A stretch of DNA of 64,000 nucleotides. It comes from Sphagnum magellanicum. Lineage: Eukaryota > Streptophyta > Sphagnopsida > Sphagnales > Sphagnaceae. The notes under the pieces were generated by a model that searched no databases, was not told the DNA's origin, and saw only the letters and a list, made by a program, of their open reading frames with translations. This document shows, in pieces, positions 10,254 through 64,000 of the stretch; position 1 is the first letter of the stretch; every line of letters begins with the position of its first letter. Made by a program: the position numbers and the translations under genes. The stretch lies in contig CM038907.1 of assembly GCA_021904315.1 (NCBI GenBank), forward strand, positions 21,893,223 through 21,957,222, in the 5' to 3' direction.

Positions 10254-11192
10254 TTACCGTAACGTGACATAACGATTAGTACCATGTTTTGCCCAATGAT
10301 CTTTGAGGTCAACAGAATAGCTTATATCAACACCTTCTGATGCTAGCTTCTCTAGTAGTTTTTCAAAGGCTCCAGCACTCATCTTCCTCCCAGCTAATCG
10401 AGAACCCCTCTTTTTTGGGTTTGTTGGCAGCGGGTACAGTGAAATGAGGGTTGTGCAACAAGCAGATTGCCATCCACCATTACCCCATCGATAACACTGT
10501 TGATTCGTTCCAGTGCAAGAGCAGTATGGTATTGGGGTTGGAGCAGAAACTGGAACAGTAGTGTAATTTGTCCTACTTACATTCTGTGTTTCCCGTATTT
10601 GCCCTTTGCCTTCTTCCTCCCCTACTTGAGGTCCTCGCAACCGCCTCTGTGGTGTCAAAGGCTTCCGTGTCTTTTTCATTGCAGGCCGAAGCACCTTATC
10701 CCGGGCCTGAACACCAGCTGAGCCTCCAGGAGACTGTTTCCTTTGAAGTTCTGCCTGTGTCTCAGTCCTCTGAAAAGCTCTATGATCACCAGCACCATGA
10801 GCAGACTCAGCATCAAAGGTCATGACCGAATTCGGTTGACTGAAATCACCTGCCAATGAACACTGCTCAGCAACCCCAACTCGTTGCAGGAGTTTGGACC
10901 CATTTATACCTCCTGCAGAACTCAGGCGTTTGCGTCCCCGTGAGGACAAGGATTCCTTTTCCACTTTTGCAAGTGTAGAGATGGCAGCATCCCTTTCCCG
11001 GAGTGCAGCATCACGGTCAGCAAGGGCAACATCACGTTCCAAAAGTGCAGCATCACGTTCCGCACACGCCACCATCTTTTCAGCAATTGCTGTATTCTTC
11101 TCCAACAGGGCAGCATCCCGTTCAGCAATCACCGTAATAAGCTGCAGGACTACATGGTCTGATACATGATCCCCTCTCCCTGCACCATCCAT
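10254..11192 (-). CDS. BBR/BPC GAGA-binding transcription factor, 312 aa
   Basis: This single uninterrupted coding exon encodes a plant BARLEY B RECOMBINANT/BASIC PENTACYSTEINE protein, a nuclear factor that binds GA/CT dinucleotide repeats. Residues about 14-75 are a run of Ala-rich AERDAALLE-type heptads, the alanine-zipper coiled coil of class I BPCs used for dimerisation. Residues about 165-200 are basic ([18 protein letters not shown]) and likely hold the nuclear localisation signal. The conserved C-terminal domain from residue 224 holds five cysteines (CSC, QQC, ACC), [16 protein letters not shown], and the family terminus [13 protein letters not shown]. The first Met is followed by the coiled coil as in relatives, and the stop is a TAA at 10254. 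A 5' leader, perhaps with an intron, is expected upstream (11193-12560), because the region up to 12560 is rich in GA/CT tracts. Confidence 0.95.
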
Positions 11193-12575
11193 TGTGATGT
11201 ATAGGCTGATAGAGCATTCCCAAAATCACCTGCCCATTTTTCATTCTTAGTGTTGATGATCATCACTACCTAAACCTGAAGGACAAGCACATCTCAGAAT
11301 CTGTGCCACTAGCAATAGTGCAACATATCCTGACAATACCACCACTCCTGCGTACAGACTACAGCTCCACAACAAAGGCCTCAGTATCTGACTCTAAAAA
11401 CTCAAAGCACTCATCATTGGCATCAATCTGACATGCCAGACCATTGAAAAGCTCTCCAAAAGGCCTCAGCATCATCAAGACTTTTCTCAACTATTTTGAG
11501 CTGGATTCAGATCTCTAGGGTTAGACATACAAGTATGATGAGCTAAGCTGTAAAGCATCCTGAGGATGCATTCAAACAGATTTTTTGTTGAAAGACTCAC
11601 AGGAACTGTATACAATTGATGTTAAAACTGGCCCGTTGTACACTCAGCAGTCGATGATATGAGTCCACAAGCTCTTTAAACAGTTGCAAAGTAAATCAGA
11701 AAAATTTCAATTGCAGGGCTGAAAATTAGGGTTGCAAGCTGAAGAGGAATCAGCCAGCCCCACGGCACATTGCTCATCGTCATCCTTTATATTCCCCATT
11801 GCTGCTGGGAACGAATTCTCCACCATAGCAAGAGGGGAGCGAATATCATATGGCATAGTAATCATTAAAAAAACCCACTTCCTGCATACGAGCATATGCT
11901 AACTAAGCCCACACACTCAACGTCACCGCAACAACCACCCCGCCCCAGAAAAATTGAAGAGAATGTCAGAAAGTCTACTGTGCACAAGAATCGGAACTAG
12001 AAAAATTATACACACAACAGAACCTCCTCGACTTCAAGAAGTTGCGAATTCAGAGATGGGATGACTCTCAGACCACTGCCAAAAAGGCAAGGTGATAAGA
12101 CAGGGAGAGAACGAGGGAGGGAAGAGATTAGGTTGGGGGGGGGGGGGGGGGAAGGGAGAGGAAACACAAAAGAAGAACAAGAACAAGAAGCGACACTTTC
12201 AAAAATCTTCCTTCACGCAAGAGAACGCGGCAAAAAACAAAAGATAGATCACACACCCAAAGGTTTCAGAATAAGGGCATCAACGAAACAGAAAAAACAC
12301 AGAAACAATAGCACAAAAAAAGTGAATACCAAAGCGGTTAAATGGGACAGAGGGAAGTAGAGAAACAGAGAACAGAAGAGAAATTGCAGGCGATGGTGGT
12401 GGCAGTGGCAGAGAACAGAAGAGAACAACAACAGCAGCAGCGAAGGCAACCAGAGAGACAGAGATAGAGACAGAGAAAACCTAAAAAAGCTCCAAAAGGG
12501 CAAAAGCAAAGCGCAAACAAAGGCTCCACCAAACCCTAAAACATTAGCAAGGATGACTACATACACTCTTATTAT
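11193..12575 (-). promoter_or_regulatory. Upstream/leader region of the BPC gene with GA/CT tracts and a G17 run
   Basis: No coding exon is visible here. On the BPC sense strand the region has many CT-rich tracts, the densest at 12360-12480 (AGAGAGACAGAGATAGAGAC on the plus strand), and a run of 17 C (17 G on plus, 12135-12151). BPC proteins bind GA/CT repeats, so self-regulation is possible. It may include a 5' untranslated intron; I cannot place its ends with confidence. Confidence 0.5.
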
Positions 12576-20000: not shown

Positions 20001-20231
20001 TTATGTTCTTTCTCACAATTGTTGGAAATATTCAAATTGGGGCTATTAGACCCTTTTTTAACATGTTAGGTTTAACACCTTCTACAACAAATTGTTATAT
20101 CACATTGAACCAATGTTTATTGCCTCTATAAATCTTACTTGTATGCATAAAAGTGAGTGAACACTAGGGAAAATCTTTCTCGCATTGTAGTTTTAAAGCA
20201 TATTTTCATGTAACACCAACAAACATTATTG
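17090..20231. other. Spacer without recognised gene
   Basis: AT-rich sequence with scattered short frames. I see no conserved domain, splice pattern or RNA gene. It may contain eroded transposon sequence, since it lies between the solo LTR and the gypsy element. Confidence 0.5.
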
Positions 20232-20544
20232 TGTCATGCCCATACATGGCCTCATACATGATGGCCAGTTACGGGCATGCCCACCATGCCTTTTAGGGTT
20301 AATGTACGCTTTTAATGTTAATGTACGCTTTTAGGTGATTGTACGTTATTAGGTGCTTAAGGTTTCAGCTTGTTAGTAGCTGTATAAAAGGCTAAACCCT
20401 TCCCTTCTCCTTTTAGTTTTTTTAGAATTCCTTTGTCAGGAGAGTTTCCTCCATAGTCAAATTGGATTTCTAGATGTTCACGGTGATTATTACATGGCTA
20501 CCGTCTACATACACTACATGTTCTTTCTTTTTTTGCAATTCAAT
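20232..20544 (+). repeat. Left LTR segment of the gypsy element
   Basis: It starts TGTCATGCCCATACATGG and matches 31733-32013 until AATTCAAT, where similarity stops. Both copies carry the CTGTATAAAAGG TATA-like box of an LTR promoter. An 18-bp block around AATGTACGCTTTTA is duplicated in this copy only. Confidence 0.8.
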
Positions 20545-21759: not shown

Positions 21760-23040
21760 ATATTCTATTGCAAGCTGTGACTTCTACACCCATATACACC
21801 ATGGAGGTCAACAATTCCTCTAGGATAATTAAGAAGCTCAGCAGAAGGCCAAGTACCATTTTTTTGAAAAAGTTCAAAACAACTTTCTCAACTATGGTTT
21901 GTGAATTAAAGCTCAAATATGGTGCTAATTACACCGAGGCGTTCACATTCAAACAATTGGCCCATTATGTGCACTATGAGGCATTGGATGTTTACAAACA
22001 ACATTTTTCGAGGATTTTAGGCATCACCCAAATCCCCAATCTAACTTATGCCATAGCCATCACCACCACTTCTCAAACTGCCATTACACATCATGGGACT
22101 ATGCCCAATAATCCAGATTCGGTACCTGCTTCAATAAACCTTTCTCCTCAACAACTCATTATTGTTACCATAAACATTCCTCCCACCATCGATGCACTAG
22201 CTTTTACTGATCCATTGGGGGAATTCTTTTGAGTTCTTGAATTGGAATTTCTAGTGAAAAGTTCTGAAAAAATTCTACAACATGCCACCTTCTCTCGACA
22301 AAATGATGAAACCCTCAAGATGCTCTATAAGAAGCTTCTCAAGCTTAAAGAGGATACTTAGAGCATCATAGACCTGGAAGCTGCCCATTGGTATTTTTGT
22401 TCATTGGAAGGTACTTCGACACTCCATGCGCAAGTTTTGCAATGGGTTTTTACAGAATTTGGAGACTCGTACATTTTGTTGTATGTGTATAACATTTTTA
22501 AAAAGTAGGAATTGGTTCATGCACACTATGAAGCCTCCATCACATTCAAGGCCTTAGCCTCCACCAACTGCGCCAACCAGATCATCACATTCTTTTTCAA
22601 GGGCTAAAGCAATGCACTTGGCTACACCCATCCTACCTTCTTACAACTACCATGGCAATCCTACCCACAAAGCTAATGAATGCAACATTCCTTCTGAAGA
22701 TTTCTTTTGTGATTATTGTGGGAAAGAGGGACATCATGAAGTTGTTTATTTTGCCAAATTCTTGGAACAGAAGTAACTTCGATTACCATGGCAAAATCTG
22801 CTAGCATCTTCCGCTACCCCTCAACCAAAAGCCAAAGCACCTCAGCCTTCCACTCAGGTTTTCCCCACCAAGGGTAATTCCAGTAAAAATGTTAAGAAGA
22901 CGGAACACAATGCTGACAAGAGGGAAATGCTCCAAGCCCATGCCACTCAAATTCAAACTTTGCAAAATGAACTTGAATCATTAAATGCCCAACTTGCTAA
23001 TCTAAAAGGCAAGTCTTCCCAACTAGCTAGTCATGCCCAA
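21760..23040 (+). pseudogene. gag region of the gypsy element (fossil)
   Basis: A gag-like frame (21768-22232) contains RRPSTIFLKKFKTTFSTMV and YTEAFTFKQLAHYVHYEALD. A zinc-knuckle-like stretch lies near 22690-22760 (FCDYCGKEGHHE). A coiled-coil-like stretch (TQIQTLQNELESLNAQLANL) lies near 22950-23010. The region is broken. In the family it would encode the capsid/nucleocapsid part. Assignment rests on position and motif order, not on a database match. Confidence 0.65.
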
Positions 23041-23899
23041 CATGTATAGGGTTCAAGATCACAGGAGGGACCTCCTAGGTTGTTTTATGGCCTCCCACAC
23101 AATGCCATGGTGCGGGAGTATGTTTTTTCTAGTGCACACAATTTTAGTTTCACACCAGAATTTGCCACTTCTTTTTTCCCTTCCCACTTTGCGGCATAAG
23201 AACCTAGTGTGGCACCCAGAGTTTTTGCCACTAGGCAAGTAATTTAGACTGATGGACTCGCATCTAGTTCAAGTCCTATTACTAGGGCTAGAGGAGCTCA
23301 AACAATCATGCCACAATCTTTTCGTCTTTTCAACACGGAAGAATAATGCACCTTATTGGCAAGGGGGGAGGAGACTACTACACCACAAGCTGTTAGGGCA
23401 TTAAATTTTCGTGTCCCAAGAGTACATGTACATCATGAAAACACACAATTTTCCACTGATCTGCTTATGGAATGCCAACTTCAAATGCATGGAGTGGCTC
23501 AAAAGGTTGTGAGTACATCATTGTTTAGTTTTCAAGATTTGAAGCTAAACACTAGGGACATAATTGTAGTATTAAAGGATACCCTGAACACTACATCAAG
23601 TCTTTTACCAATCCCTAATCCACATGCTACAGGGGTCCCATCTAAGACCTTGGAGAGACACTCAATTGGCTCACGTGTTGCAAATGGCGTTCATAATCTA
23701 ATCACTAGTTCTAGCATGGTTAAACTAATGGGCTCTCTTACTTTTGATTCTACATTCACATATCAAAAGGGAGTTAAGAACAGTTCACTTGTGGATTTGT
23801 TACTTAGCAAAGGCATTGTGGATAACCATTCTCTTCACAAAATCTCTCACTCATTTTCGAAGGTGGTGCCTAGTGAAAGAACTTCCATTGCCACCGAAG

Positions 23900-24110
23900 T
23901 TGCCATTGTCAACAATATTGAGTCAACAATCGAGGTGGGAGGACATACACCCAGAGTGGTACTTCTTGATACATGTGCCCAACTAGTGATTCTTGGAGTT
24001 CAATTTGCCAAGAAGATGGGCATGCTCGACTTTAAACTATGGAAATCTATGTGGCAAATTCGCATCGCTGGTGGGAACGTAAAGGAGGTACTTAGGGAGA
24101 TTTGGATTTG
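23900..24110 (+). pseudogene. Retropepsin-like protease region (fossil)
   Basis: Within the frame 23356-24111, the C-terminal part (EVGGHTPRVVLLDT, then ILGVQFAKKMGM) resembles the active-site strand and following helix of retroviral-type aspartic proteases. It lies between gag and the methyltransferase region, as expected for the protease of a gypsy element. It is part of a broken element. Confidence 0.6.
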
Positions 24111-24619
24111 ATTGCATTTAGTTTCAATGAAGGTACAAATCAAGATATTGGCCTATAGGTCAGATGTTTAGTCACCAATGCCACTAGTTACGATGTGTTC
24201 ATTGGGCAAGAAACCCTGTTTCCACTAAAATTCATAATTGACGACTAGTTCGAACATGCATACTATTGAATGGATTGGGAAACTAATGGCCACTACTTAG
24301 GATACATACCCTTTGATTTACATGGGAACCATAATCCTATGGTTCACCACTATATGCTCAAAGATGCACACACCATTTCCTACATCCAACAAGCTAACCA
24401 CAAGTGGATAAAGGGAGAAGAGGAAGAGACAACTTATACCCAAGCTACTAAAAGCTTGAAGCTGGTTCCTATGGACATTCAACATGGACCAGAGGTCTTA
24501 CAGAAGTTCAAAGCAGCCCACAAGCCTTTGGTCAAAGCTCTATTTAGTTTTGAAAACATGGAGAGCCATGGCAAACCGATTAAACCAGTAATTTGTCAAC
24601 TAATCACCCGGACACCGCC

Positions 24620-25600
24620 TAAAGAGGGGATTACATTATCAAAGTTTTTTGGTGGTATTGGTACAGGTCTCAAAGCCCTACTATAGTCAGGGATGGTGGT
24701 TCGGAAGTATTTCTACGTAAACATTGATCCTATTGCAAGGCAAGTGGCGGCATCGAAAATGAGGGAGCTCATAGCCAGATTTCCACAATAGTTTACAACC
24801 ACCGCATGGAAGGTTAGTTTCACGTTTTTGCCCTCTGACATACAACTAATTCAGAAGAAACATATGGAATTACTTGGCCCCGTGGACCTCATCATTTCAG
24901 GTTGGGAGTGTCAAGGATTTTCAATGGCTAGATTTGGAGAAGGCTTGAATGACACAAGATCTAATATCTTCATTAACATGGTACAATTGATCACTTGGGC
25001 TCAATCCATTTCTCCTACGCTTAGTTATGTAATTGAGAACACCCCTTCTTAGCTTGACCAAAGGGAAAAAGTCCATGAGCATTACATGTTAGTCAAGCAT
25101 TACCTTGGAGAGCCACTCCAACTTGATGCGACATAATGCAATTCCTATGCGCACCAGTTGCGCAACTAGTGGACCAACCTTGCACCACTATCAGTTTTGC
25201 AATTAGCTCTAAGATACACCATCAGAGACCCCAACTTACAGGTTTCTCACATATTAAATGATGAAAGCTTTTGCCAACCAATTATAAGGCAAGAGAAACC
25301 TCCTTGGTTTCCTGTGAACACAATAGGAAAACCAAGAGGTGTTTGGCCCACCTTTATCTCCTTCCTAGGAACAGATGCCTTTTAGGGAGATGCACCAAGC
25401 TTGGTGTATCGTCATGCTTTAGCCACTTGGGATGAACCAAACCTAGAAGAAATAAAAAGGGCTATGGGGTTCTAAACTAGCATTACTAGTCACACTAAGG
25501 TGACTAGATTGGAATGTAACGTTCTATTGGGGAAAGGCATGGACCTAAATTCCCTTACATGGTTATTAGTAATTAGTGTACTCTTTCAAATGTACACAAC
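24620..25600 (+). pseudogene. DNMT3-like C5-cytosine methyltransferase region inside the gypsy element (fossil)
   Basis: Motifs occur in the order of C5-cytosine methyltransferases: motif I-like FFGGIGTGLKALL (about 24640-24684), motif IV-like DLIISGWECQGFSMA (about 24880-24930), and motif VI-like VIENTP (about 25028-25048). A spacer follows, then the C-terminal blocks EEIKRAMGF (about 25447-25473) and LLGKGMDLNSLTWLL (about 25526-25570). The last two resemble the ELERIMGF and LLGRSWSVPVIRHL blocks of DNMT3 enzymes. The region sits between protease and reverse transcriptase, so it belongs to the element and is not a separate host gene. It is broken like the rest. In an active relative it could methylate the element or its surroundings; that role is inference. 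Confidence 0.8.
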
Positions 25601-26039
25601 ACCAACACTAATTCAATCAGCTTGCAGTTTTGGCGATGTGACCACATGGCACCCCAACCAAGTACATTTGCCTATCTTCAACACTTTACATTTCACTCTC
25701 AGTGTTGGGGGGAAAAGGTACCATGTAATTTGACTCAAGTCGTTTTTGATACACATGGAGGTACATCAACTTCTGGATAAATAATTATAACCTTCTACAA
25801 ATCTACATAGTTGGATATTGGAAAACCTAGTACACCAGGCTCTTCAAACACACTTTCTAACTCCATTCCATGTGTTTCCAACTACCCTTTCGTTATGGGG
25901 AACTAGCTCACTAAGAAGGAGAAAAACCAGGTCACAAATTTGTTAATTAAATATGTGAATGTGTTCGCATTCTCAATGAAAGACTTAGGTAGGTGTAAGA
26001 CCATGTAGTTCTCTATACACTTTACAGATGAAACACTTG

Positions 26040-27300
26040 TCTATCGGAAGAAACATAGGTTGAGCAAGCATGAGTGGGAACTGGTAGATGAAAGATGTAA
26101 AGAGTTCCATGAGGCTGGTCTCATTCAGTCATCAAGTTATGGTTTTGCAGCCACTATAGTAATGCTAACAAAAAATGATTCAATTGGATTATGGACTGAA
26201 AAAAAGATGTGCAGGGATTATAGGTCTTTGAACCTAGTTACACCTTAGGACAGGTACCCCATGCCCATCCTTGAAGAATTGTTTGATAACATTGGAGATT
26301 TAAACATCTTCACAATTATGGATCTGAGGCAAGGCTTCAATCAGATTGTGCTTCCTACAAAGGATCGCAAAAAACAACATTCCATGGAAACAACAAGTTG
26401 TGGGAATGGCTTGTGATGCCTTTTGGATTCAAGAATGCACCTGTCTTCTTTTAGCAAATCATGGACTAGGTTTTTGAAGGGGCATATTTCCTGAAGTGCT
26501 ACATAGATGATGTCCTAGTGCATAGCAAGGGACTCTTGCAGCATTTGGCTCATCTTGAAGAGTTATTCAAGAGGCTCCACAAAGTCAATATGAAGATCCA
26601 TCCTAAAAAGTGTGAATTTGTTGTCACCTCAGTAGTCTACCTTGGACACAAAATTTTGCCAATTGGTCTTATGGTTCATTGGGCCAAAATAGTAGCCATC
26701 TTAGAAATGCCCAATCCTATTGATGTTCACACTTTGAAGAGCTTCATCGGACTATGTAATTACTTACAAAATTTATGTCCAAGACTTTAGTACTATTGCT
26801 CATCCTCTCTATGCATTGTTAAATAAGGATGTTGTTTGGAGATGGAGTGATGAAGCTTAGGAAACTTTCAACACACTCAAGGAAAAGCTTTCAAAGTTCG
26901 TCATTATGAGAAGACCTGATTTCAGCAAGGTCTTCATTCTACACACTGATTGGAATGCTCTTGGTATTAGAATTATTCTTGGCCAACTTGATGAGGAGGG
27001 TAAGGAATATGTTATCGCCTATGCATCCCGAAGCAACAACTAGGTTGAAAACAACTACTCTTCATACGAGGGGGAGAGCCTTGCTGTTGTATGGGTCGTC
27101 ATACATTTCAGGCCTTATCCTTATGGCACCAATTTCACTTTGTATACCGACCACTAATCTATCAAGTGGTTGATGACCAACGATAAATTTACTAATAAGT
27201 TAGCTCGTTGGGCGCTTATATTTTAGGAGTATGAGTTCAAGGTTATTCACCAACCTGGTATTACACATTAGAACATGGATACCATGTCGCAAAAACCCCT
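26040..27300 (+). pseudogene. Reverse transcriptase and RNase H region (fossil)
   Basis: RT blocks are visible: an RLSKHEWE-type start, MCRDYRSLNLVTP, the catalytic box YIDDVLVHS (about 26500-26526), and HPKKCEFVVTSVVYLGHKI. RNase H blocks follow: RRPDFSKVFILHTDWNALG and a later YTDH with IKWL (about 27130-27170). The order and wording are those of Ty3/gypsy pol. The region is broken. Confidence 0.85.
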
Positions 27301-27499
27301 CATTACCTTTGAAAATTTATAAAAACCAGGTAAAACTTCAACCAAATTCCAATAGTACATGTATATGATGCATCTAGTTATCTTGCACTACTGCAATGTA
27401 ACCTAGTTGAGCATCCCATTGTGGATATATGGGAGGATTTGGACACTTTGAAATTTCTTCAGCATGGTGTGAGGAATTCTTGCACACCTTCACCATTAA

Positions 27500-30110
27500 G
27501 ATATGCACTCACAAAAAAACCGGTTGAAAGTGGAACTACTATGTAGTTGTAGTCTAACAAGTAAGGTGGTTCAAGGTAAGTAATGAAATTCATTAAAGAT
27601 CTAATGCGTTGTGTTCAATTTGAAGATACAAAGACATTGTGAGATAATCGTAACTCACCATGATGGAATATGAAGGAGCCGTATGTTGATGTTCAATCCA
27701 ATGTCACGCTTGATGGTTGGAACCTTTCCGTTCCATTTGTCATAACATCTACATATAACCTCTTAATCTAACATGCATTGAAATTTTGGAAAAACTAATA
27801 TAAAAGGAGCCATATTACAAAATCTCATAAGTTTTTATTTTTATTTTATTTTTTGATCAAGAGTTAAGCCTTGAATTAGAAACCACTTTGCTTAGATTGA
27901 AGGAAAAAAACAGACAATTCAACCCCCTCTACTTTCAACAAGTGTAGCTCCCTTACAACAACTCCAATGATGCTGAAATTTGAGGAAAACCTTCTACACC
28001 TCTCAAACTAAGACTGATTTAAATTTGACATAAATCCAACGGTGGATTTGGGAGGAACAATTAATTGAAATAAAAATCCAGAGGCTTTGTCATGGAAATC
28101 CTTCCATGAACTCCACTACAACACCCTCTACTTCTAACCAATGTAGCTCCCTGACGGCAAAACCGATGATGCTAAAATTTGGGGAGAACCTTCTACACCT
28201 TCCAAACTAAAACTGATTTCATTTTGACACAAATCCAACGGTGGATTTGGGACAAACAACTAATTGAACCAAAACTCCAGAGGCTTTGCTACAAGTACTT
28301 GTTACACACAACTTCCTTCCATGTTTGATTCTTGCACACACCTTTTCCATGAACACCTCTCCACACATAAGAACTAAAAATTCTTCCTCACACCTCTTCC
28401 TCCTTTTTCTTCTTTTTCACATACACACCATACCCTTTTCCTTGGTAAGCCTCCATGACCTTCCTTGAGCTTGTTCCCTTTGTCCAATGAAAGATTTGAA
28501 ATCCTTTGCTCTAATCAATGGCCTCCTCATCTTTCTAGAGCCAATGAGAATTGAGAATAAATTGCCATCCAATTGAGTTTATGATGAAAATTCTTGGGCC
28601 CAATGAGACACAAGAAATATTCCATCCTCCAATCAAATAGGATGACAATCCTCATGACTAATGGGATTAGAGGATTCATCCCTTCCCTTATCTTGGATAT
28701 TTTGATGAGGTCTTTTGAGCTTGATCCTTATCCTTTTCATCCGTTCACCTTCACATCCTACTTTTTCATCCTAATTATTTCAAGTAACTAACTACTAGGA
28801 TAGTTTATCGGTAGTAACAGTAACGTCCTTGAATTCGTACTTGAGTAATTCAATGGTGGAACTAACATCCCCGTGTACCATTTACTCTTTTGATATCCCT
28901 TACCTATTTATTTTACCATGCACTAGTTAACTATGTAGTACATAGTAAATTTGAAGTAAATTTGCATCACAAAAAACCCCCACATCACATACTTCTAGAT
29001 CCGCCGTCGAAATTAAGGTTTGATGAGTCCATTAGATCTAGGATGTTCGAGTTTTCATGAGGTTCCGCCGTCACTCCCACACCTTACGCTTACCTTAATT
29101 TGTTAATTAAAAAGGCCTCGACCCCTTCTGAACGCAAGTACCACATTGTTTGTACTACCTTTTGGTTTTTGTTGATGCAGGTGAGAACTTAGTCATGGCG
29201 GATGATGTCGCTACGCCTTCGAATCCTCCAGTTGCATTAGTAGAACAGGAAGAGCTTGAAAAAGCATCGCTCGACGTGATTGTTTCTCAACGGCCGTGTG
29301 AAGAAGAACTGCCAAGGCGAGTGGTGCGCACTGGAGTCGATCGTTCGGCATGGGATCGTCGATTGTCTCCTAACCCACATGCTTTAGCAATCTATTTAGA
29401 ATTTGTTCCTGCTCGTGGAACCGCGCCAGAAAGGTTTGAAGAGTGTCAATGCGAAGATGATGATGTCCATTTCCATTGTTGAACATGAGTTCCCGGTGAT
29501 GGCCATTATCGTTGGCTACGAGGGCCAATCAACCCCCTTCCCATGGAGCATCGAGCCGAGTACCTCGCTCGCACCATTCGTCGCATTCTAGATTTTTTGC
29601 AATTGTGATCTATGCTTTAAGTCGGTTATAAAGTTGTAATTCATTTGAAGTTACTCAGGCGGAAATGTTAATACTTAAGTTTGATTTGATTCTATTTAAA
29701 AGTTGATAGAAGTGAAACTAAATAAAGATGTATTAAGACTACATCCTAAAAATCTTACAAGTACATCATTAGTGCTTGAAGATTCTTTTACAGACTAACT
29801 TAACCTTGTCATGGCGAAATGTTATTGTTAATTATGGGCTTATATTCCCTATATATCAATAAATCACATCTAATTCTACATCCCCTTTCCCTTTTCTACA
29901 ACATAAAAGGGATAATGTACTTTAAAAGGTTTACTAGGTGCTTAACTGATTAAGCGCTACATCAACTGAAATAAAGAAGTACTATATGCCTAGAAATATC
30001 ACAAAAGTCGATTCAACTATTAATAATCACTACTTGAAGGCTTATAAGCATTCAAATCATTAGTATTAAGGAAAATTACGAAACTAAAACTTAACTAGTT
30101 GTTGAACTAT
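27500..30110. mobile_element. Probable nested insertion inside the gypsy element
   Basis: Between RNase H and integrase there are about 2.6 kb that do not look like gypsy pol. The stretch starts with a two-unit tandem repeat (27918-28293) and continues through AT-rich sequence. It ends with a higher-GC segment (29000-29590) holding a 110-codon frame (29150-29482) that I cannot assign. The insertion boundaries are approximate and no target duplication was identified. It may be one or more other retroelement fragments. Confidence 0.5.
27918..28293. repeat. Two-unit tandem repeat, period about 190 bp
   Basis: Two units share CCCTCTAC, GTAGCTCCCT, GATGATGCTGAAAT/GATGATGCTAAAAT, CCTTCTACAC, AAATCCAACGGTGGATTTGG and CCAGAGGCTTTG in the same order. 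They begin near 27918 and 28112. They are non-coding. Confidence 0.85.
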
Positions 30111-30239
30111 AATCCATGGCTTACATGGGGAATACCCTCCTCAAGTTACATCAAGTCATCGGGATTGCATACAACAACAGTCCAAATGTTACTCATGGAA
30201 GGACAATCACCTTGTTCAATGTTTACCACAAGGTGACAA

Positions 30240-31130
30240 AGTGGTTCCTCCACCACATGAACACCTTGGTGTTATTCAGAAGGTACACTCGGAGCTTGGA
30301 CACTTTAGAGTTAAGTGTACTTATAACCTTCTCACTCCTCATTACCATTGGAGAGGTATGTATGTTCAAGTCCGAGACGTCATTGCTAGGTGTGAACAAT
30401 GTGATAGAGTGATAACTTCTTTCTCCTCTCGACAACTCACGCTTTCTCCACTCCTTATTCAGGGCATGTTCTATCGTTAGTCATGTGATTTAGTTGGAAA
30501 ATTACCATAGACCTCCAAGGGTAATATCTACATCAAAGTGGGTCGAACTTGTTACATTGCCGGACAAGTCATCACACAGCACCAGCTAATTCTTACAATA
30601 GGTCCTAAATAGGTTTGGGGCTTGTGTTGAGTGCCTTATTGATCAAGGATAAGAATTCAGGGGTGAATTCCAAGACCTACTTGACCATGCTTTTATTGAC
30701 CATCGTCGAACTTCAAGAGATCATCCCCAAGCTTATGACCTTGCAGAAAGGATAATTCAAACATGTAAAAAGGGACTTTAAAAGATTTGCCTCATTAAGA
30801 ACAAAGAAGATTGGGACCTGGCCCTACCTTACATCAGCATGGGTTACAAGATGTCCAAACATGTTTCTTTGTCTCGTTTCTCTTCTTACTTTCTACTTTT
30901 TGGGAAACATCCCATTCCACCCTCTTCCATTGTTACTCAAATGGACCAAATTGTGGACTTGGACTCTTCAGCCATTTGGGCTAGGGTCATTGCAAAGAGG
31001 GTTGCTCTATTCAAGAGGGTTATGCCCATGGCCATGGAGAACTTGTCCATCGCACAACATTGAGACACCTTATGGTATGCACACACACGAGGTGGCAGTT
31101 ACAAACCTAAGGTGAAACAATTTGATGCTG
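30240..31130 (+). pseudogene. Integrase region (fossil)
   Basis: The HHCC zinc-binding N-terminus is seen near 30245-30405 (EHLGVIQKVHSELGHF, CEQC), followed by traces of the catalytic core (about 30520-30790) and the C-terminal part (about 30840-31130). Position after RNase H fits Ty3/gypsy. The region is broken. Confidence 0.8.
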
Positions 31131-31334
31131 GTGATTTCGTGTATATCTAGTGGTAACTTAATGATACTTTAGACATTGTTTTCGGTCGCACTATCTTGAA
31201 GATTAAGGCGATTAGGCCTTCAAGTGTGTTGGAGTTACAAGGAGTTAATATACACATAATTTGGGATCACTCCAAAAATTGTGCACCTTGCCATCTACCA
31301 AACTTAAATCCTACCATCATCATGTTGACTTGGA

Positions 31335-31510
31335 TTCCTCCATTTGATTATCCATGTCAGGTATGTCAAAGGATAAACGATGCTAATTAGATGTTATTTT
31401 GCGATAATTGTAATGGTGGACACCATCTATTATGCTTCAAGCCAAAGCTCACTCAAGTTCTCGCTAGCATTTGGTACTGTTCATCATGTTCTCCTGTAGC
31501 ACCTTGATTT
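31335..31510 (+). pseudogene. PHD-like zinc finger at the end of pol (fossil)
   Basis: After the integrase a cysteine/histidine cluster appears: PCQVCQ, FCDNCNGGHHLLC, then IWYCSSC. The spacing Cys2-Cys2-His-Cys-(W)-Cys2 and the Trp two residues before the last Cys pair are those of a PHD finger. This module usually reads the histone H3 tail. Many plant gypsy elements carry a chromodomain at this position instead, so a PHD-like finger is unusual. It is part of a broken element. Confidence 0.7.
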
Positions 31511-31558
31511 CTATTCAGACCATGCCACGCTTTTCCTAACTCGGATCTGGGGGGGGAT

Positions 31559-32188
31559 ACATGAGAATTTCATCTCAACCTCCTCTTATGCATGGTATAT
31601 GCATGTGGGTGCATCTCTTTTTGGTTGATTAGTTTCTACCTTTGACTAGTTTTAGTCTTTTTGTTTAGTAGAATTTATTATGGATTTACACCCTATAACA
31701 CCATACGTCACGGCACTACACATCACGACAACTGTCATGCCTGTACATGGAGGCTGATTACGAGCATGCCCATCATGCCTTTTAGGGTTAATGTATGTTC
31801 TTAGGTGATTGTATGCTATTAAGTGCTTAGGGTTTTAGCTTGTTGGTGACTGTATAAAAGGCCAAACCCCTCCCTTTTCTTTTTAGTTTTTCTAGAATTC
31901 TTTATCAGGAAAGTTTCCTTGATAGTCAGATTGGATTTTTAAATGCTCATGATGGCTATTACACGGCTATCGTCTACAAACACTACATGTTCTTTCCTTC
32001 TTTGTAATTCAATACATGAGAATTTCATCTCAGCCTCCTCTTATGCATTGTATATATATGTGTATGCATATCTTTTTGGTTGATTAGTTTCTACCTTTGA
32101 TTGGTTTTAGTCTTTTTGTTTAATAGAGTTTATTATGGATTTACACCCTTACGACACTGTACATCATGACACTACACGTCACAACAAT
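31559..32188 (+). repeat. Right terminal repeats of the gypsy element, arranged Y-X-Y'
   Basis: Block X (31733-32013) matches the left LTR segment. Block Y (31559-31732, starting ACATGAGAATTTCATCTC) lies between the polypurine tract and X. A second version Y' (32014-32188) directly follows X, about 88 percent alike by eye. Either the LTR is Y+X and a second partial LTR follows, or Y is sub-terminal and was duplicated. The sequence does not decide this. Confidence 0.7.
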
Positions 32189-35100
32189 TGTTTTGTTCTC
32201 TTGCACATGAAATGGTTTTGGCAAGTTGTGTTTCTTGAGTGGTAAAATGTAGGGCCCCACTTGGTTCAAAAGTTAGTCAATATTTGATACTGGAGGATTT
32301 ATTTATTTTGCAATATGTAATATATATTTTGCAACAAGATTTTTTAAACATCTAGTGTAAGTTGGTTATGATTTATTATAATTGTTGTCTTGAAATGTTG
32401 GTCCTAGAAAAAATTCTAATAGATTATACAAATATCTGCTTACATGGTGAAAAAATTGAATTAATATATGCGTTTGCATATGATTTTCATAAAATTCGAC
32501 TATGCTACTTATGGGCTTAATGGAAATTATAAGCCCTCGTCTCATTTTTCTTGCATGTTCTTTACACATGTTCTAGCAAAAGAAATTACTATATTGGGGT
32601 CATGCTCAACTTTGCCTTCCACTGCCCTTCTTCTAGAAAATCCCTAAACCCTTCCACATGAACCCATGAAGACATTCCCATTCCTTACACAAACTTAATG
32701 GTTTGATTTTTCAAGGTTTTTATTTATTAATTTTTGTGAGATCCAAAAACTTTCTCCTTAGCAAAATTAGCTGAATTTAAAGAAAGAAATAAAATTCTCC
32801 AAAAAAACATATTTGGTACCAATATATTATCTTTTGTCTTTTGAAAAACATATGAAGGGTTTGACAAAAAAAAGTATACATTAACAACTCTTCAGAATCA
32901 ATAGCCAATAAAACCTACCATATTGAAGCATTTGTCACCACAATTCTACAATGTTAAAAATACAATAGCCAATAAAACTTAAATATTGAAATAATTTTTA
33001 ACCACTCGAACTACGACACTTTGCAATTTGTCACTAGCAAGTTATGAACATACTCAAATTATGATAGCCATATCTAGAGAAAAATATTTTCTCTATAGCC
33101 AATTGGATCCACCTACCCCAAAAGAAATAACCACATGAACATACAAGCATTGACAATTTGTACCCAATCAACCTACCTCACAAATTTGGAAAAAAAAAAC
33201 ATTAATGATGATATTATACTAATTTTAATTTCTTTTTTTATAATGGAAGTAGAATAATAGGTAGAATTTCAATCGATTTTTCAGGTTTATCAAATATGTT
33301 TTAGTAATTTTACCTATTACTAGGAAAATTTCAGTGTTTCATTTGGTGTAAAATGAATAGATTGCCTTCCCTTATTGCTTAAAAAAAATAAAGAGATTTA
33401 TGTATGAATCACCCAATTTTCCTTCACGATTTTTTTGTGTTTTTTGTGTGTTTTTTTTTTTTGAAAAATTCAATGTCTTTTCAAATATATAATTAGTGTG
33501 GAATTTGTCAAAGTATTAAAGGAAGGTAGGTTGTTGTTTTTACACATAGTGAAGAACATGTTTCTTTTAAGGATTTTGTGATGTAGTCAAAGTGGTGATC
33601 ACCCAAAAATGATTTAGCCAAATTTTGTTACAAACTAGATATGAAAATAGAAAAATATATATATATATATTTTTAACCTTCTTGGGTATTTATGGAACTT
33701 ATCATGAAAATATGACAATTTGCACAAAAAAAATATAAATATAATAAATTTGGGCAATTTTTTCCCATGAAGAATCCTTTCTATAAATTGAAATCATATT
33801 TTCTAGGTCAACATTTGGTAAAAATTTGGCAATGAAACAAACACTAGGAAGAGCTGCTTGAGCATTGGTGTAGGGCTTGGGCTTGAAATTTTCAATCACA
33901 CTTGACTTAATTTGTGGGTGACTTTTGGAACATTATGTGTGCATATGATGAAAGGGCATGTTTGATAGAAGTTCATGCTTCTCGAGGAGAAGTTTTTAAT
34001 CTTGTAAAAATTTCTTAGAATTTGTGTAGTGTAATTTGAAGACACATTATAATGCACAGTTATCCTTTATCTATCACATGAATGAGTGGTTTTTTTTTAT
34101 GACATGCATTACAAAAAACATAGAAATTCATTTTTTGAAGGTTGCATCAATTTTTACACAACCCACAAACAAGAACATTACCAAAATCAAATGTACACTT
34201 GATTCTTGCATTGCACAACTTAATTATTTTGGTAATGCTTTCACCCTTGAGTTTTATTATATGAGGAAGGGAAGGTTTCAAATTGGAGGTTTGAATCTAG
34301 CATAATGAATAAAATCATTATGTGATGAATTATTTGTTTGTCCCATTGAAATCTCCCAAACCACAACACTTCCCATTACACAATTGTTAACATTGGAAAG
34401 TCATTGATGAATATGCGTGCACCAAGGTGTTTTGTAATGTCTAGACCTATAATGTAAAAGTTATCAAATATTGAACAGTTTTATCATTGAAAATTCAATT
34501 AAGTCAAAACAAAAAAATTTAAGGAAATTGGGGTGTGTCTTTGGTATTGTTGGAAAGCCCTCAATTGGATTTCATGATTTTAATTCCTAAGGTGCAAAAG
34601 CTATTGAATTTTGAGTAATTTTTGTCAATGGAAATTAAATCAATTTTGACATTCAAAATTTAAGGAAATTTGATTTCAAATTTAGGTTGAAAAATTTGAA
34701 CATGTTTAAATGTGGTAGCACTTCTAGTTTAATTTTGAAAAAAATGAAATACTTTGTTAAGTTCCCAACTTACGATTCCAACAAAACTCATAACCTCCAA
34801 TTCAAGGACCCTAGAACATGACCTATAACTTACACTTGAACCTCCTTAAATCCTAGAACCTAATTTATGAATATTGCACAATTTTGTCCCAAAATATCAA
34901 CACAATAATAAATTAAAAAATTTAATGAAATTTGTGCAAGTTCCTAGTATTATCAAAAAGCCCTTATAAGTGGGATTTCTTATAGATGCTTTCATAAAAT
35001 TTGGACATAAGATGGAAAAAATATTGAATTTTTTCACAATATGGCCTTATCATTTAAATCCTATTCACACTTGGAGTAATTGCACTGAAACAATATGACT

Positions 35101-48079: not shown

Positions 48080-51000
48080 ATGGTGGCCACAGGCGCATTC
48101 ATCACCTCGCTCCTGACATCGTTTGCCATTTTCTGCTTGTTGGTGCTGGTTTACACAGTTCTTTCTCGATGGCCGATGAACTACAATATCTACTACTGTA
48201 GTCGAATACTTTCTGGGTCGGGCCCTCCGCCGCTGCCGCCCAGATCACGGTTTGTCTGGAACCCATGTGCCTGGATCAAAGAAGCTTTCATTGCCACTGA
48301 TGTCCAGCTTGCGGAAACTGCGGGATTGGATGCCACCGTCTACATCAACTTCTTCTCCACTGGTGAGCTCCAAAGCCTCTAGACCTAAGAATCTCTTCTG
48401 CTCCCCATTGTCCTTACTGCACGTGTCTTTCTGCAAGAGTATGAATCTCAGCCAATAGTGGTCAAAGAATGGATCCAGAGAGAGACACAGAAGCAGAGAA
48501 TGGGTCTTGTCTTCTTCTTCTTCTTCCTCATCAGTTCCCATTTTGCTCAGACTCTTTTGGATCCATTTCTTGCTCTAAACATCCTGATCACTTTCCTTGC
48601 AAATCTGCGTCTGAGCTTACAACGTGCAAACAAAACTCAAGCAGCAGCAAATTGCCACGAAATTCTTGAGAAAAGAAAATCTTTGACAGCCATTGGGTAC
48701 CAGGATTTTGGTACCTTGTGCGAGAAGCTATGGGACTTTGGGTATGTATATTGGGACTGTGGAGAAGCTCTTCTGCACTGCACTTTATGGCCATGGCAAG
48801 CGAGATGCAAGAAATGCAAAAGCCCTTTTGAAATGTGGGATGTGGAAAAATCTCAAGCATGGCACAAGTTTTGATGGGTCTTTTTTTCTTTTCTTTTCTT
48901 TTCTCTCTTCAAGTGTGAAAAAATGCAAGCATGCACTTGTTGATGGTGGTGGATATGTTGTGCATGCGGATTTTTTTGACAGCATTGGAAATTTTTGGCT
49001 ACTCTGCTTTGTTTTGTATACCGGTGCTCATACCGATTGCTGTAACGAGTCACCAAAATGAGCTGGAGCTCCAGATAAATCCAAATAACACATATGAACC
49101 AATTGACAACTTGGCCATTGGCAATGTTGAAGTAAGTGGGCAGCACCTGCAAAATCCCATTCCACTCATTTTCCAATTGTGCTTTCAAAAATGCCTTTTT
49201 GAATTGGAAATTCTGGAGTTGCCAATTGGTTTGATTCTGGAATTGGCAATACATTGATTTATTCTTTCACCTTGGCATGTGACAGCCGGGTAGCTCAAAG
49301 CTCTGGGCATTTCTGATTGGCGTCTATTGGGTGTCATTTGTGACATACTATGTGCTGGTGAAGAACTACAAACACATGATTGATCTTCGCACTTCGGAGC
49401 AAGCGCATGAGAAAGCCTATCCCCAGCAATTCTCGTGTCTAGTTCGTGACATCCCAAAACCTCCAAGGGGAATGACTCGTGTCCAACAAGTTGATACTTT
49501 CTTTAAGAAATTGCACCCTGACAGCTATGAGAAGTGCATGGTTGTTACCAACCACAAAAAGGTAAAAGCCTTGATTGGTGATGACCTATCCTATGCCACT
49601 TTTCTGAAGAATCTGGTGACAAAGTAATGCTGTTAGAAGCTGCATTTTGGTTTGAATTGAAAGTACTAGCCACATGGTGTTTTTTGCAGCTTTCAGAGAT
49701 GTGGTCAAAGCTGGAGAGTGCCAAGAAGAGTTTAGCACACGTGGAATCTCAGTTTGATTTGTCGAAGAGTCCAACATTTCCAGAAGGAAACAGGCCCACA
49801 CACAAGACAGGTCTCTTTGGACTGTGGGGACAAAAGGTGGACTCCATTGACTTCTACAATGAACAGATCAAGGAGCTTGCTCCCCAAGTTGCCACAGAGC
49901 AGTGCAGAACTCTGGAGGAAGAACAGAAAGCAGCTGCCTTCGTGTTCTTCAACAACCGCCGTGCTGCTGCTGAGGCTTCCCAGGTAAGGCAGATCTTCAA
50001 CTACCCACTGACACGGGGGAGTTTGTTTGTTTTTTGGCTCACTTGAATTTAGTCCTCTATTCCCAAACTGCAAACTGGGTGAATAGATCTAGGAAAGTCT
50101 TCTCTGATGAATTACAGGGAAATAATAGACTTGATACTACCTAAGACCTGGGTTATATGTTTGCAGGTGGTGCATGCACCTTATGCAATGCAATGGCAGG
50201 TGTTTCCTGCACCAGAACCTCGAGAAGTGGTGTGGGAAAATCTTGCAAAACCATTATATGAGCGTATGGTTCGGGAGACGATAATCTACATTGTTGTGTT
50301 TTTCACAGTTGTATTCTACATGATACCTATTGCATTCATCTCTTCTCTCACTACGCTCAACAACCTTGTAAAGCTGGTCCCCTTCATCAAAGCCATTGTT
50401 GACTATCCACCCCTGAACACCGTGTTGCAAGTAAGCTCTTCCTGCAAGTGGCAAATGCACTTCTATATCTCATGCACCTTGCTGGGTTTGCTTGCACTAG
50501 TGGAATGTATGTACCATTTTCTTCTCACTCCTAGACAATGATATATTATCCTTACAGAGGCTTGTGATGCAGTTGCACAGAGAGCTTCCAGTTGCTGTCA
50601 CCCTCAGAGAGTCTTTGTTGGAGCTAGTAGAACCTGACAGGCTTTGCGTGGGTTTATGTTGTTTTTTTTTGGTGCATTGGAGTGTAGGCTTATTTGCCAC
50701 AGCTTGCCCTCATCATTTTTCTTGCACTTCTGCCTGGGCTTTTGATGCTCTTGTCAAGGCACGAAGGAATCCCTTCACAAAGTCTAATGGTGAGAGCTAC
50801 CTCTGGGAAGTACTTCTACTTTGTTGTGTTCAATGTGTTCATTGGTGTCACACTTTTCGGGACCATCTTTTCGTCACTTGATGGATTCAAGGAGCTTCTC
50901 AATTCCCGCAAGCTTTCAGTAAGCAATGTGGTTACCCTGTTTGGAAACAAGCTCCCACCCAATGCTACATACTTCATCACTTTTGTTGCACTTCAGTGAG

Positions 51001-52041
51001 TTTTAGCTTCACACAAAGACCCCTCCTTTTATTTGTACTGTGTTCTGTTAGTACACATAGTAATGACTGCCTGAGAACAAGTCAATTTGTATTGAGAATT
51101 TGATCTATCAGAAGCTTCTTTCTTCTGTTTGGAGCCCAATTTTTTTTTTTTCCTGGCAGGTTTTTTGTTGGCTATGGTTTAGAACTGTCACGGTTGGTGC
51201 CATTGACAATTTACCACTTGAAGCGGAAGTACCTTTGCAAAACAGAGGAGGAGGTTGAGGAGGCATGGGCTCCAGGACCCCTCACTTATGAAACTCTAGT
51301 GCCCAACGACATGCTCATAGTGACCATCACCTTATGTTATTCAGTGATTTCGCCAATTATCTTGATATTCGGACTTCTCTATTTTGGCATAGGCTGGTTG
51401 GTTCTACGCAACCAGGTCTGATCTGTCTTCCCTTCTTGTGCAGTTTTGGTCTTTACTTGCCCCATCATCTTTTGAGGATAAAACCTAAACTGTACTAGAA
51501 TTGCTTCTCAAGGTGAAATCATTGTGTTTTTCTAGCTTCTACAGTCAGGGGTTGGAGACTGTTGGATCCAGTTGTTTCTGATGGGGGAAAGGAAAACAAA
51601 AAAATTTCTTTGCAGGCTTTGAAGGTTTATGTGCCAAGCTTTGAGAGTGGTGGGCGGATGTGGCCACATATACACTCACGGATTCTGGCATCACTATTTG
51701 TGGCACAGATAACTATGATTGGCTACTTTGGAATCAAAAAGTTCCCATATACAGTCCTTGTCATTTTTCTTCCCTTCATCACCATTGGGTTCACCCTGAT
51801 CTGCAAGATGAATTACTACCCATCGTTCCAAGTGACCTCACTTGCAATTGCCAGTGAGGTTGTGACACAGTCACCATCTCTTTCTGCTATTATCAATGCC
51901 TATACGCCAGCTTGTCTCCAATCTGAAGCTGACAAGTCTGAAGATAATGACCGTTTTGAGGATGCTAGATCCAATGTAAGTTCCAGAACAGATTCTGGAA
52001 TCAATTTTCCCCCTGGGGGATCAGGTCAGGAATCTGCATGA
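48080..52041 (+). CDS. OSCA3/ERD4-like mechanosensitive calcium-permeable channel, 8 coding exons, 751 aa
   Basis: Exons are 48080-48362, 48983-49131, 49286-49561, 49690-49983, 50167-50430, 50688-50995, 51160-51415 and 51616-52041. All introns are GT-AG and the frame is continuous. The protein matches Arabidopsis ERD4 (OSCA3.1) along its length. Examples are an N-terminal membrane helix (SLLTSFAIFCLLVLVYTVLS, from about residue 9) and VRDIPKPPRGMTRVQQVD. Also matched are FVFFNNRRAAAEASQ, VFYMIPIAFISSLTTLNNL, GIPSQSLMVRATSGKYFYF, SRLVPLTIYHLKRKYLCKT and YFGIGWLVLRNQALKVYVPS. Domain order is the OSCA one: N-terminal helices, a cytosolic PHM7-type loop (roughly residues 175-355), then the membrane pore bundle (roughly 360-650). 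The C-terminus is an acidic/Ser-rich tail. Members form dimeric osmo-/mechanosensitive cation channels in plant membranes. ERD4 is dehydration-induced in Arabidopsis; regulation here is unknown. Confidence 0.95.
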
Positions 52042-53174: not shown

Positions 53175-54333
53175 CTAAGATCCGGGGGTGAAGTTGGTGG
53201 CATAAGCCCAAGCATTGTTGGTAACTGGGTCGGCCAAATGATCGCTCAAATTGGCCAATGGGCCCTTGCCAGTGACGATGGCCTGCACGAAGAATCCAAA
53301 CATGGAGAACATGGCCAGTCTTCCGTTCTTCAACTCCTTCACCTTCAGCTCAGCGAAAGTGTCGGGGTCGTCAGCCAGGCCCAAGGGATCGAAGGAGCCG
53401 CCTGGGTAGATTGGATCAGTAACTTCACCCAATGGTCCTCCTGCAACGCGATAGGCCTCGACCGCGCCCATGAGCACCACCTGAGAGGCCCAAATGGCAA
53501 GAATGCTCTGGGCATGGACCAAGGACGGGTTGCCCAAGTAGTCAAGGCCGCCGTCCGCGAAGATCTGAGAACCGGCCTTGAACCATACTGACTCTCCGAA
53601 TGGGACGCCGTTCTTGGCCAGAAGCTCCGGTGTAACGCAGCCCAAAGCTCCGAGCATGGCCCAGCGTGAGTGAATCACCTCCAGCTCCCTGTTCTTGGCG
53701 AAAGTCTCGGGGTCCGCTGACAATCCTGCGGTGTCCCAGCCGTAGTCACCGGCGAACTCTCCAGTCAAGTATGAAGGGGTATCTCCAGAGAACGGGCCCA
53801 AGTACTTGGGACGATCAGGTCCATACCTGAAAAGAGAAAGAAAAAAAGAATAACATCCCCCCCAAAAACAGCTCTCAGACCAACAATGATGAAGCAAAAA
53901 CATGATCATCATATGCAGCACGAATCCTAAAAATCTCTTCAGCAGCTCTATCAGAATTCCTCAACAGACACTTGAATGTAAGTTCTCAAGCTATCGATGC
54001 AAACAAATGGAAATGACAAAAAAGGAGCTTGATTCAAGTCTAACAGGATCCACAGCTGAAATTGTAAACCCAAAAACCAACAATTCCTTGACAACAACTT
54101 CAGAATTCAGACTGCAACAGAGAGGGAAACAAAGCAGAATAAGAGGTTGAACATATATGAGAGATCAGTAGTTGAGAGAGATCAAACCAGATGCTAGAAC
54201 TAGAACTTGACTTGCTCCCGCGCATTTGAACACGAGCCTCATTGCTGCCAACTTTGCGCGACAGCTCGCTGCTCTGCTTCAACAATGTCTGGCCTGCAAA
54301 GGCAGTGGATGCACAGGCAGTAGCTGAAGCCAT
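53175..54333 (-). CDS. LHCB1/2-type LHCII chlorophyll a/b-binding protein, 265 aa, 2 exons
   Basis: Exon 1 is 54333-54188 and exon 2 is 53826-53175. The 361-bp GT-AG intron splits the Trp-49 codon. The chloroplast-targeted precursor starts [15 protein letters not shown], with a transit peptide of about 35 residues and a Ser-rich mature N-terminus. The WYGPDR trimerisation motif (49-54) follows. Three membrane helices are marked by [17 protein letters not shown] (helix B, 96-112), the segment around 150-175, and [20 protein letters not shown] (helix C/A, about 213-232) with its chlorophyll-binding Glu-Asn-Arg. The C-terminus is [14 protein letters not shown]. It binds chlorophyll a/b and xanthophylls in trimeric LHCII of thylakoids and feeds photosystem II (and PSI in state transitions). 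Length and motifs are fully canonical. It is the first of a local cluster with a decayed copy (56450-57505) and a second gene (63384-64000). Confidence 0.98.
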
Positions 54334-63383: not shown

Positions 63384-64000
63384 CTAAGATCCGGGGGTGA
63401 AGTTGGTGGCATAAGCCCAGGCGTTGTTGGTAACTGGGTCGGCCAAATGGTCGCTCAAATTGGCCAATGGGCCCTTGCCAGTGACGATGGCCTGCACGAA
63501 GAATCCAAACATGGAGAACATGGCCAGTCTTCCGTTCTTCAACTCCTTCACCTTCAGCTCAGCGAAAGTGTCGGGGTCGTCAGCCAAGCCCAAGGGATCG
63601 AAGGAGCCGCCTGGGTAGATTGGATCAGTAACTTCACCCAATGGTCCTCCTGCAACGCGATAGGCCTCGACCGCACCCATGAGCACCACCTGAGACGCCC
63701 AAATGGCAAGAATGCTCTGAGCATGGACCAAGGACGGGTTGCCCAAGTAGTCAAGGCCGCCGTCCGCGAAGATCTGAGAACCGGCCTTGAACCATACTGA
63801 CTCTCCGAATGGGACGCCGTTCTTGGCCAGAAGCTCGGGTGTAACGCAGCCCAAAGCTCCGAGCATGGCCCAGCGTGAGTGAATCACCTCCAGCTCCCTG
63901 TTCTTGGCGAAAGTCTCGGGGTCCGCCGACAATCCTGCGGTGTCCCAGCCGTAGTCACCCGCAAACTCTCCAGTCAAGTATGAAGGGGTATCTCCAGAGA
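63384..64000 (-). CDS. Second LHCB1/2-type gene, partial (C-terminal 204 residues), cut by the window edge
   Basis: The visible part aligns without gaps to 53175-53791 of the first LHCB gene and ends at the same TAG. It covers residues 62-265: helix B ([17 protein letters not shown]), the middle helix, helix C/A ([13 protein letters not shown]) and the terminus [14 protein letters not shown]. By direct comparison the two differ at 11 of 617 positions, all silent, so the proteins are identical over this part. The start, exon 1 and intron lie outside the window. Role: LHCII antenna apoprotein, as for the first gene. Orientation is the same as the first copy and the decayed copy, as in a tandem array. 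Confidence 0.97.

Follow-up and report, generated by a model that had tools for sequence, protein, structure and literature searches.

A DNMT3-type cytosine methyltransferase is a standing part of a Ty3/gypsy-type retroelement in Sphagnum

Because plants use DNA methylation to silence retroelements, it is paradoxical that an element should carry a methyltransferase itself. Retroelement-borne DNA methyltransferases have been published for algae and dinoflagellates (PMC5890265); a 2025 survey refers to DNMT3 in streptophyte and dinoflagellate retrotransposons as an earlier report (PMC12344493), and methylase-bearing gypsy elements of green algae are already in print (Morozov et al.). KnitGypsy-Dnmt3, from the streptophyte alga Klebsormidium nitens, is described as carrying an unpermuted Dnmt3-type domain within a gypsy Pol and as having a DIRS-like repeat order despite its gypsy-like domains (PMC5890265). 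The same paper treats this gypsy capture as independent of the dinoflagellate cases, SymbioDIRS-Dnmt3 (likewise Dnmt3-type) and SymbioLINE-Dnmt, which are retroelement-borne C5 methyltransferases of other retroelement classes (tyrosine-recombinase DIRS and LINE) and other hosts, and a 2019 paper builds an argument on absence from land plants (PMC6338049).

Here we analyse a 64,000-nucleotide stretch of Sphagnum magellanicum DNA (the window), which contains an old, broken Ty3/gypsy-type element with the order gag, protease (PR), DNMT3-type methyltransferase (DNMT), reverse transcriptase (RT), RNase H (RNH), integrase (INT) and PHD finger (Table 1). The initial annotation had placed the methyltransferase between protease and RT in a Ty3/gypsy Pol, and both points hold: RT, RNase H and integrase have Pfam matches and are collinear with relatives, the order PR-RT-RNH-INT is found in the window and in those relatives, and the window is collinear with P0125 (gag-PR-DNMT) and P0124 (DNMT-RT-RNH). 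Decay is uneven. Two degenerate zinc-knuckle motifs can be made out by eye in the gag remnant; the protease remnant matches Pfam Asp_protease_2 at E 0.003, below the family cut-off, and is kept by collinearity; and the integrase core gave no Pfam match in 30533-31300. The PHD finger, the direct repeats (20232-20544 and 31557-32188) and the insertion extend the element beyond what was first annotated. A TATAAAA sequence lies within repeat B1 (20383-20389). The insertion holds a 175-nt tandem duplication (27915-28089 and 28114-28288) and, at 29132-29479, an open frame of 116 aa that matches no Pfam family.

Table 1. Features of the element and of its surroundings in the window
Feature	Position	Strand	Remarks
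Plant GAGA-binding protein	10257-11225	-	
Left repeat B1	20232-20544	+	79.7% to B2 across 20255-20544; start set at 20232 by eye
gag remnant	21801-23043	+	collinear with N-terminal part of P0125; 66.8% identity over 21801-22538
Aspartic protease remnant	23716-24225	+	76.6% to P0077 over 23716-24099
DNMT3-type C5-cytosine methyltransferase domain, decayed	24630-25580	+	7 in-frame stops, no frameshift; motif IV GWECQGFS
Reverse transcriptase remnant, frameshifted	25859-26784	+	RVT_1 E 8.8e-13 on 26470-26790
RNase H remnant	26765-27316	+	RT_RNaseH_2 E 3e-12 on 26861-27043
Insertion between RNase H and integrase, foreign to the element	about 27469-30126		breaks collinearity with P0220
Integrase remnant	30127-31350	+	Integrase_H2C2 E 2e-13 on 30106-30480; rest by collinearity with P0220, 41-48%
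C-terminal PHD finger	31355-31489	+	PF00628 E 9.3e-10
G8 run, polypurine-tract-like, directly 5' of A1	31549-31556	+	
Repeat A1	31557-31732	+	87.8% to A2
Repeat B2	31733-32011	+	
Repeat A2, right end of the element	32012-32188	+	
OSCA/RSN1-type channel, pieces	49283-52038	+	
Chlorophyll a/b-binding reading frames, two	53178-53960 and 63387-63998	-	

The methyltransferase motifs first reported (FFGGIGTG, GWECQGFS, VIENTP, EEIKRAMGF and LLGKGMDLNSLTWLL) are all in place, in order and in a single frame that stays constant over 24105-25715 when relatives are aligned to the window; their order, I-IV-VI-VIII-X, is unpermuted, and the catalytic cysteine of motif IV is kept. A match to a C5-methyltransferase profile, on which the identification had been made to depend beforehand, is significant: the stop-free piece 24792-25052 reaches E 4.4e-7 against PF00145 and the protein with its stops written as X reaches E 2.6e-6, both above the Pfam cut-off, and DNMT3C, 3A and 3B rank first in a search of PDB sequences (best E 1.3e-4). 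With its in-frame stops here and frame changes elsewhere in the element, the copy is broken, as had been proposed, and makes no working enzyme.

A protein search with the window domain returned 252 relatives at E <=0.001 (of 886 candidates), the best covering the whole query at 77% identity (E 5e-163); the relatives listed are the best 120 of the 252, and the organisms named among the matches listed are Sphagnum compactum, S. magellanicum and S. balticum (P0048, P0086, P0104). P0125 (1214 aa), 57-67% identical to the window, runs in one open frame through gag and protease to the C-terminal end of the methyltransferase, while P0124 (820 aa) carries RT and RNase H after a methyltransferase lacking motif I. 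P0220 (2358 aa) encodes PR-DNMT-RT-RNH-INT-PHD after a gag-like start with a zinc knuckle seen by eye; aligned to the window it is 31-50% identical from the methyltransferase onward, and the gag and protease of the window are not matched. Among 122 moss-type reading frames (P0004-P0125, grouped by likeness from the matches listed), the spacer between protease and methyltransferase occurs in 40, the linker between methyltransferase and RT in 45, and either in 83, counted on slices cut clear of the domain and with the reference proteins P0077 and P0124 included; a looser cut gives 40, 48 and 86. At least 280 domain residues are present in only 4 of the 122, and the motif VIII arginine is changed in 17/59 and 23/60 moss-type rows, indicating that most of the listed moss-type copies are decayed. 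Comparison among relatives cuts both ways at the level of sequence: the likeness of P0125 to P0124 in the methyltransferase (82.0%) keeps step with its likeness to P0077 in protease (80.0%) and spacer (77.9%), which would count for a standing part of the element, whereas the lower likeness of P0124 to P0220 in the methyltransferase (42.7%) than in RT-RNH (54.9%) would count against it. Trees of RT-RNH and of the methyltransferase, built from the same 26 hand-picked rows, share the same main split (100/99; 99/94). Searches of viral contigs with P0004 and P0005 found no element DNA, and a scan of species genomes with P0124 found none.

A further search with P0126, itself found with the window domain and 34-38% identical to three moss-type sequences, yielded 113 proteins, counting P0126 and P0125, out of 4338 candidates, among them proteins named from Haematococcus lacustris (P0148, P0150, P0177), Chlamydomonas eustigma (P0219) and Closterium sp. 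NIES-53/54 (P0231, P0232, P0234, P0236, P0237). The domain belongs to a green-lineage family that includes chlorophytes. Gypsy polyproteins of chlorophytes (Haematococcus lacustris, Chlamydomonas eustigma and metagenomes) share with the moss element a homologous methyltransferase, a PHD finger after the integrase and, in most, the Glu-Cys loop of motif IV, but they are arranged RT-RNH-DNMT-INT-PHD, with the methyltransferase between RNase H and integrase rather than between protease and RT. Across the 114 long proteins P0124-P0237 the placement between RNase H and integrase is found in 102, including fragments that bear methyltransferase and integrase alone, and that between protease and RT in 11; the one in neither group, P0168 (1440 aa), has a methyltransferase that groups with the RNH-DNMT-INT type yet precedes an RT-start-like stretch, and is perhaps a third placement. 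The Closterium methyltransferase matches each come in two pieces, from which we take these models to be damaged or mis-predicted. Of the 85 proteins with at least 240 residues past the integrase match, 83 have a PHD match there; it is absent from P0192 and P0223, the latter ending in a Cys-rich stretch, perhaps a diverged finger, and from Closterium P0232, whose tail is shorter. Past the PHD finger of P0126, residues about 1690-1848 show a DPWCGTGG... and ...SPWF pattern, which we take to resemble a second, adenine-type methyltransferase and which gave no Pfam match.

These relatives bear directly on whether the domain might be a fragment of a host DNMT3 gene that came by chance to lie inside one retroelement copy. 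The window copy is broken, and a single such copy would look alike; but the same segment sits at the same place in other copies, joined to the protease or to the RT within their reading frames, and the trees show an old family, which refutes this reading and leaves it a vanishingly small chance. We conclude that the element has long carried the methyltransferase as a standing component, with the catalytic cysteine of the enzyme kept, and that the domain is a member of a green-lineage family. A separate matter is whether the source of the enzyme was viral or bacterial instead of a eukaryotic DNMT3 gene. Matches do exist among C5 methyltransferases from viral contigs and among predicted viral structures, and the GWxCQ loop recalls some viral C5 methyltransferases, which we counted in favour of such a source. 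The profile search, however, places DNMT3A (3e-25) far above HhaI (1e-10), with DRM as second-best group, and structural comparison aligns DNMT3A/B at 2.7 A over 270 residues (about 23% identity), against TM values to the query of <=0.49 among the 50 viral model matches listed. The family also joins DNMT3A/C against nine viral-contig rows at 100/100, in a tree where long branches meet at that point and whose rows are DNMT3A/C fragments and viral-contig sequences, with CMT, MET1, DRM and plant and algal DNMT3 missing; the viral rows derive from 51 loci with partial matches to a broad profile, taken for viral C5 methyltransferases for outgroup use only, from which ten reading frames were extracted and one dropped for length. 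Profile ranks, tree and viral models together disfavour a viral origin, and we hold capture from a virus or bacterium to be very unlikely. DNMT3 is the best match by profile and by fold, and the tree agrees, so the DNMT3-like identity first proposed stands. In fold, in the order of its motifs, in motif VIII (AHR.R..W.NL) and in the motif X block the domain resembles cellular DNMT3A/3B; it differs in its low identity, in having Glu for Pro in motif IV and in being embedded in Pol; neither ADD nor PWWP was matched in P0004, P0086, P0124, P0125 or P0126. Plant DRM is likewise DNMT3-related, but its motifs are permuted; its absence from the best 50 PDB structure rows is no evidence against it.

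A Pro-Cys dipeptide in motif IV is typical of C5 methyltransferases, and because Glu-Cys replaces it here we use the name DNMT3-type rather than plain DNMT3. Counting the rows that cover each site, Glu precedes the cysteine in 163 of 184 (Pro in 15, other residues in 6), the window copy and both architectures included. This substitution in most rows would favour a domain carried without catalytic use, for example as a structural or DNA-binding part of Pol, as would the reported lack of activity of the Klebsormidium gypsy-borne enzyme in a yeast assay, in which DNMT3B failed too (PMC5890265). Against that reading, the remaining residues keep the pattern of an active enzyme: the motif IV cysteine is present in 183/184 rows (moss type 72/73; other PR-DNMT-RT with P0168 9/9; RNH-DNMT-INT 102/102), the following Gln in 177/184, and the motif VI Glu and Asn in 172/178 and 176/179, so that we find a non-catalytic role distinctly unlikely. 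The motif VIII arginine is kept in 42/59 and 37/60 moss-type rows and in 105/106 and 106/106 of the others; judged from sequence, the moss-type substitutes are consistent with decay by C-to-T change. The SymbioDIRS-Dnmt3 enzymes of dinoflagellates are reported to perform de novo CG methylation in yeast (PMC5890265). In this one decayed copy the repeats run B-coding-A-B-A (B1 ... A1 B2 A2, the outer edge of B being set by eye) and not AB ... AB, which suggests a circular, DIRS-like intermediate; the published DIRS pattern is A-coding-B-A-B (PMC5890265). An ordinary LTR pair, with a truncated left LTR and a tandem partial copy in the right one, would account for a single decayed copy, tandem LTR structures being described as common in plants (PMC11899658), and the G-run 5' of A1 stands as it would before a normal 3' LTR. 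Yet left and right ends break off at the same A/B boundary, and the arrangement agrees strikingly with the one published for KnitGypsy-Dnmt3 (PMC5890265); we regard the ordinary pair as a serious possibility, though a somewhat doubtful one. If the element runs TG...CA, ATTG lies outside both ends (20228-20231 and 32187-32190), a possible 4-bp target-site duplication that is too short to claim.

The explanation that we consider probable as a whole is a Sphagnum-type gypsy element in which a standing DNMT3-type enzyme serves self-methylation, with PHD targeting and a circular route of replication. The enzyme would be made as part of Pol and stay with the replication complex, methylating DNA newly made by the element, in the course of reverse transcription or afterwards, or the chromatin that the element enters. 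The PHD finger at the integrase end may read histone state and help to choose the target, and replication might involve a DIRS-like circle as intermediate, even with an integrase of gypsy (DDE) type. A new copy would then land already marked; the mark might shield the cDNA or, alternatively, place the copy in methylated chromatin, where it would do little harm and be tolerated. A broader proposal, which we think unlikely in full, is that an ancient green-lineage family, with a DNMT3-type writer (Glu-Cys loop) and a PHD reader in one polyprotein, writes its own chromatin address, each new copy being methylated at the cDNA stage and directed to matching chromatin. On this view the family would have accompanied green plants from chlorophytes by way of streptophyte algae to mosses; the enzyme would have changed its position in Pol once, some algae would have lost the reader, and replication would combine a DIRS-like circle with a DDE integrase.

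Base composition carries a trace that fits methylation of repeats by the host. CAG/CTG stand at 0.46/0.40 of first-order expectation in the coding part of the element and at 0.48/0.19 in its integrase part; the flanks have 0.68/0.65 and 0.90/0.84, and the control triplets GAC/GTC in the coding part 0.69/0.81. The later insertion is likewise depleted (0.37/0.28), which points to host CHG silencing, and we rejected this loss as a sign of self-methylation.

With a land plant rather than an alga as its host, the element departs from KnitGypsy-Dnmt3, to which it is likened by published description; no Klebsormidium protein is among the named matches listed. What we record for the present element also includes the PHD finger and a motif IV with Glu-Cys. 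The open-licence literature, covered in part and without subscription journals, names no methyltransferase-bearing element in a land plant, and within the same partial coverage we found no account of a PHD finger with the methyltransferase, of the Glu-Cys loop or of the two placements. The Sphagnum copies, some with the whole domain open, contradict absence from land plants as far as mosses are concerned, and the premise falls for that group; for other land plants we make no claim of absence, because the relatives listed are the best 120 of 252 and annotations often omit transposons. Mosses offer a host for testing self-methylation, target choice and tolerance, and the two architectures with the PHD finger make the family datable and comparable across green plants. 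That the host is a land plant, as first read, is supported by the chlorophyll a/b-binding, GAGA-binding and OSCA-type genes in the window, which mark a green plant, and by the Sphagnum names among the listed relatives. The two chlorophyll a/b-binding frames are very similar and about 10 kb apart, the second lying near the window end.
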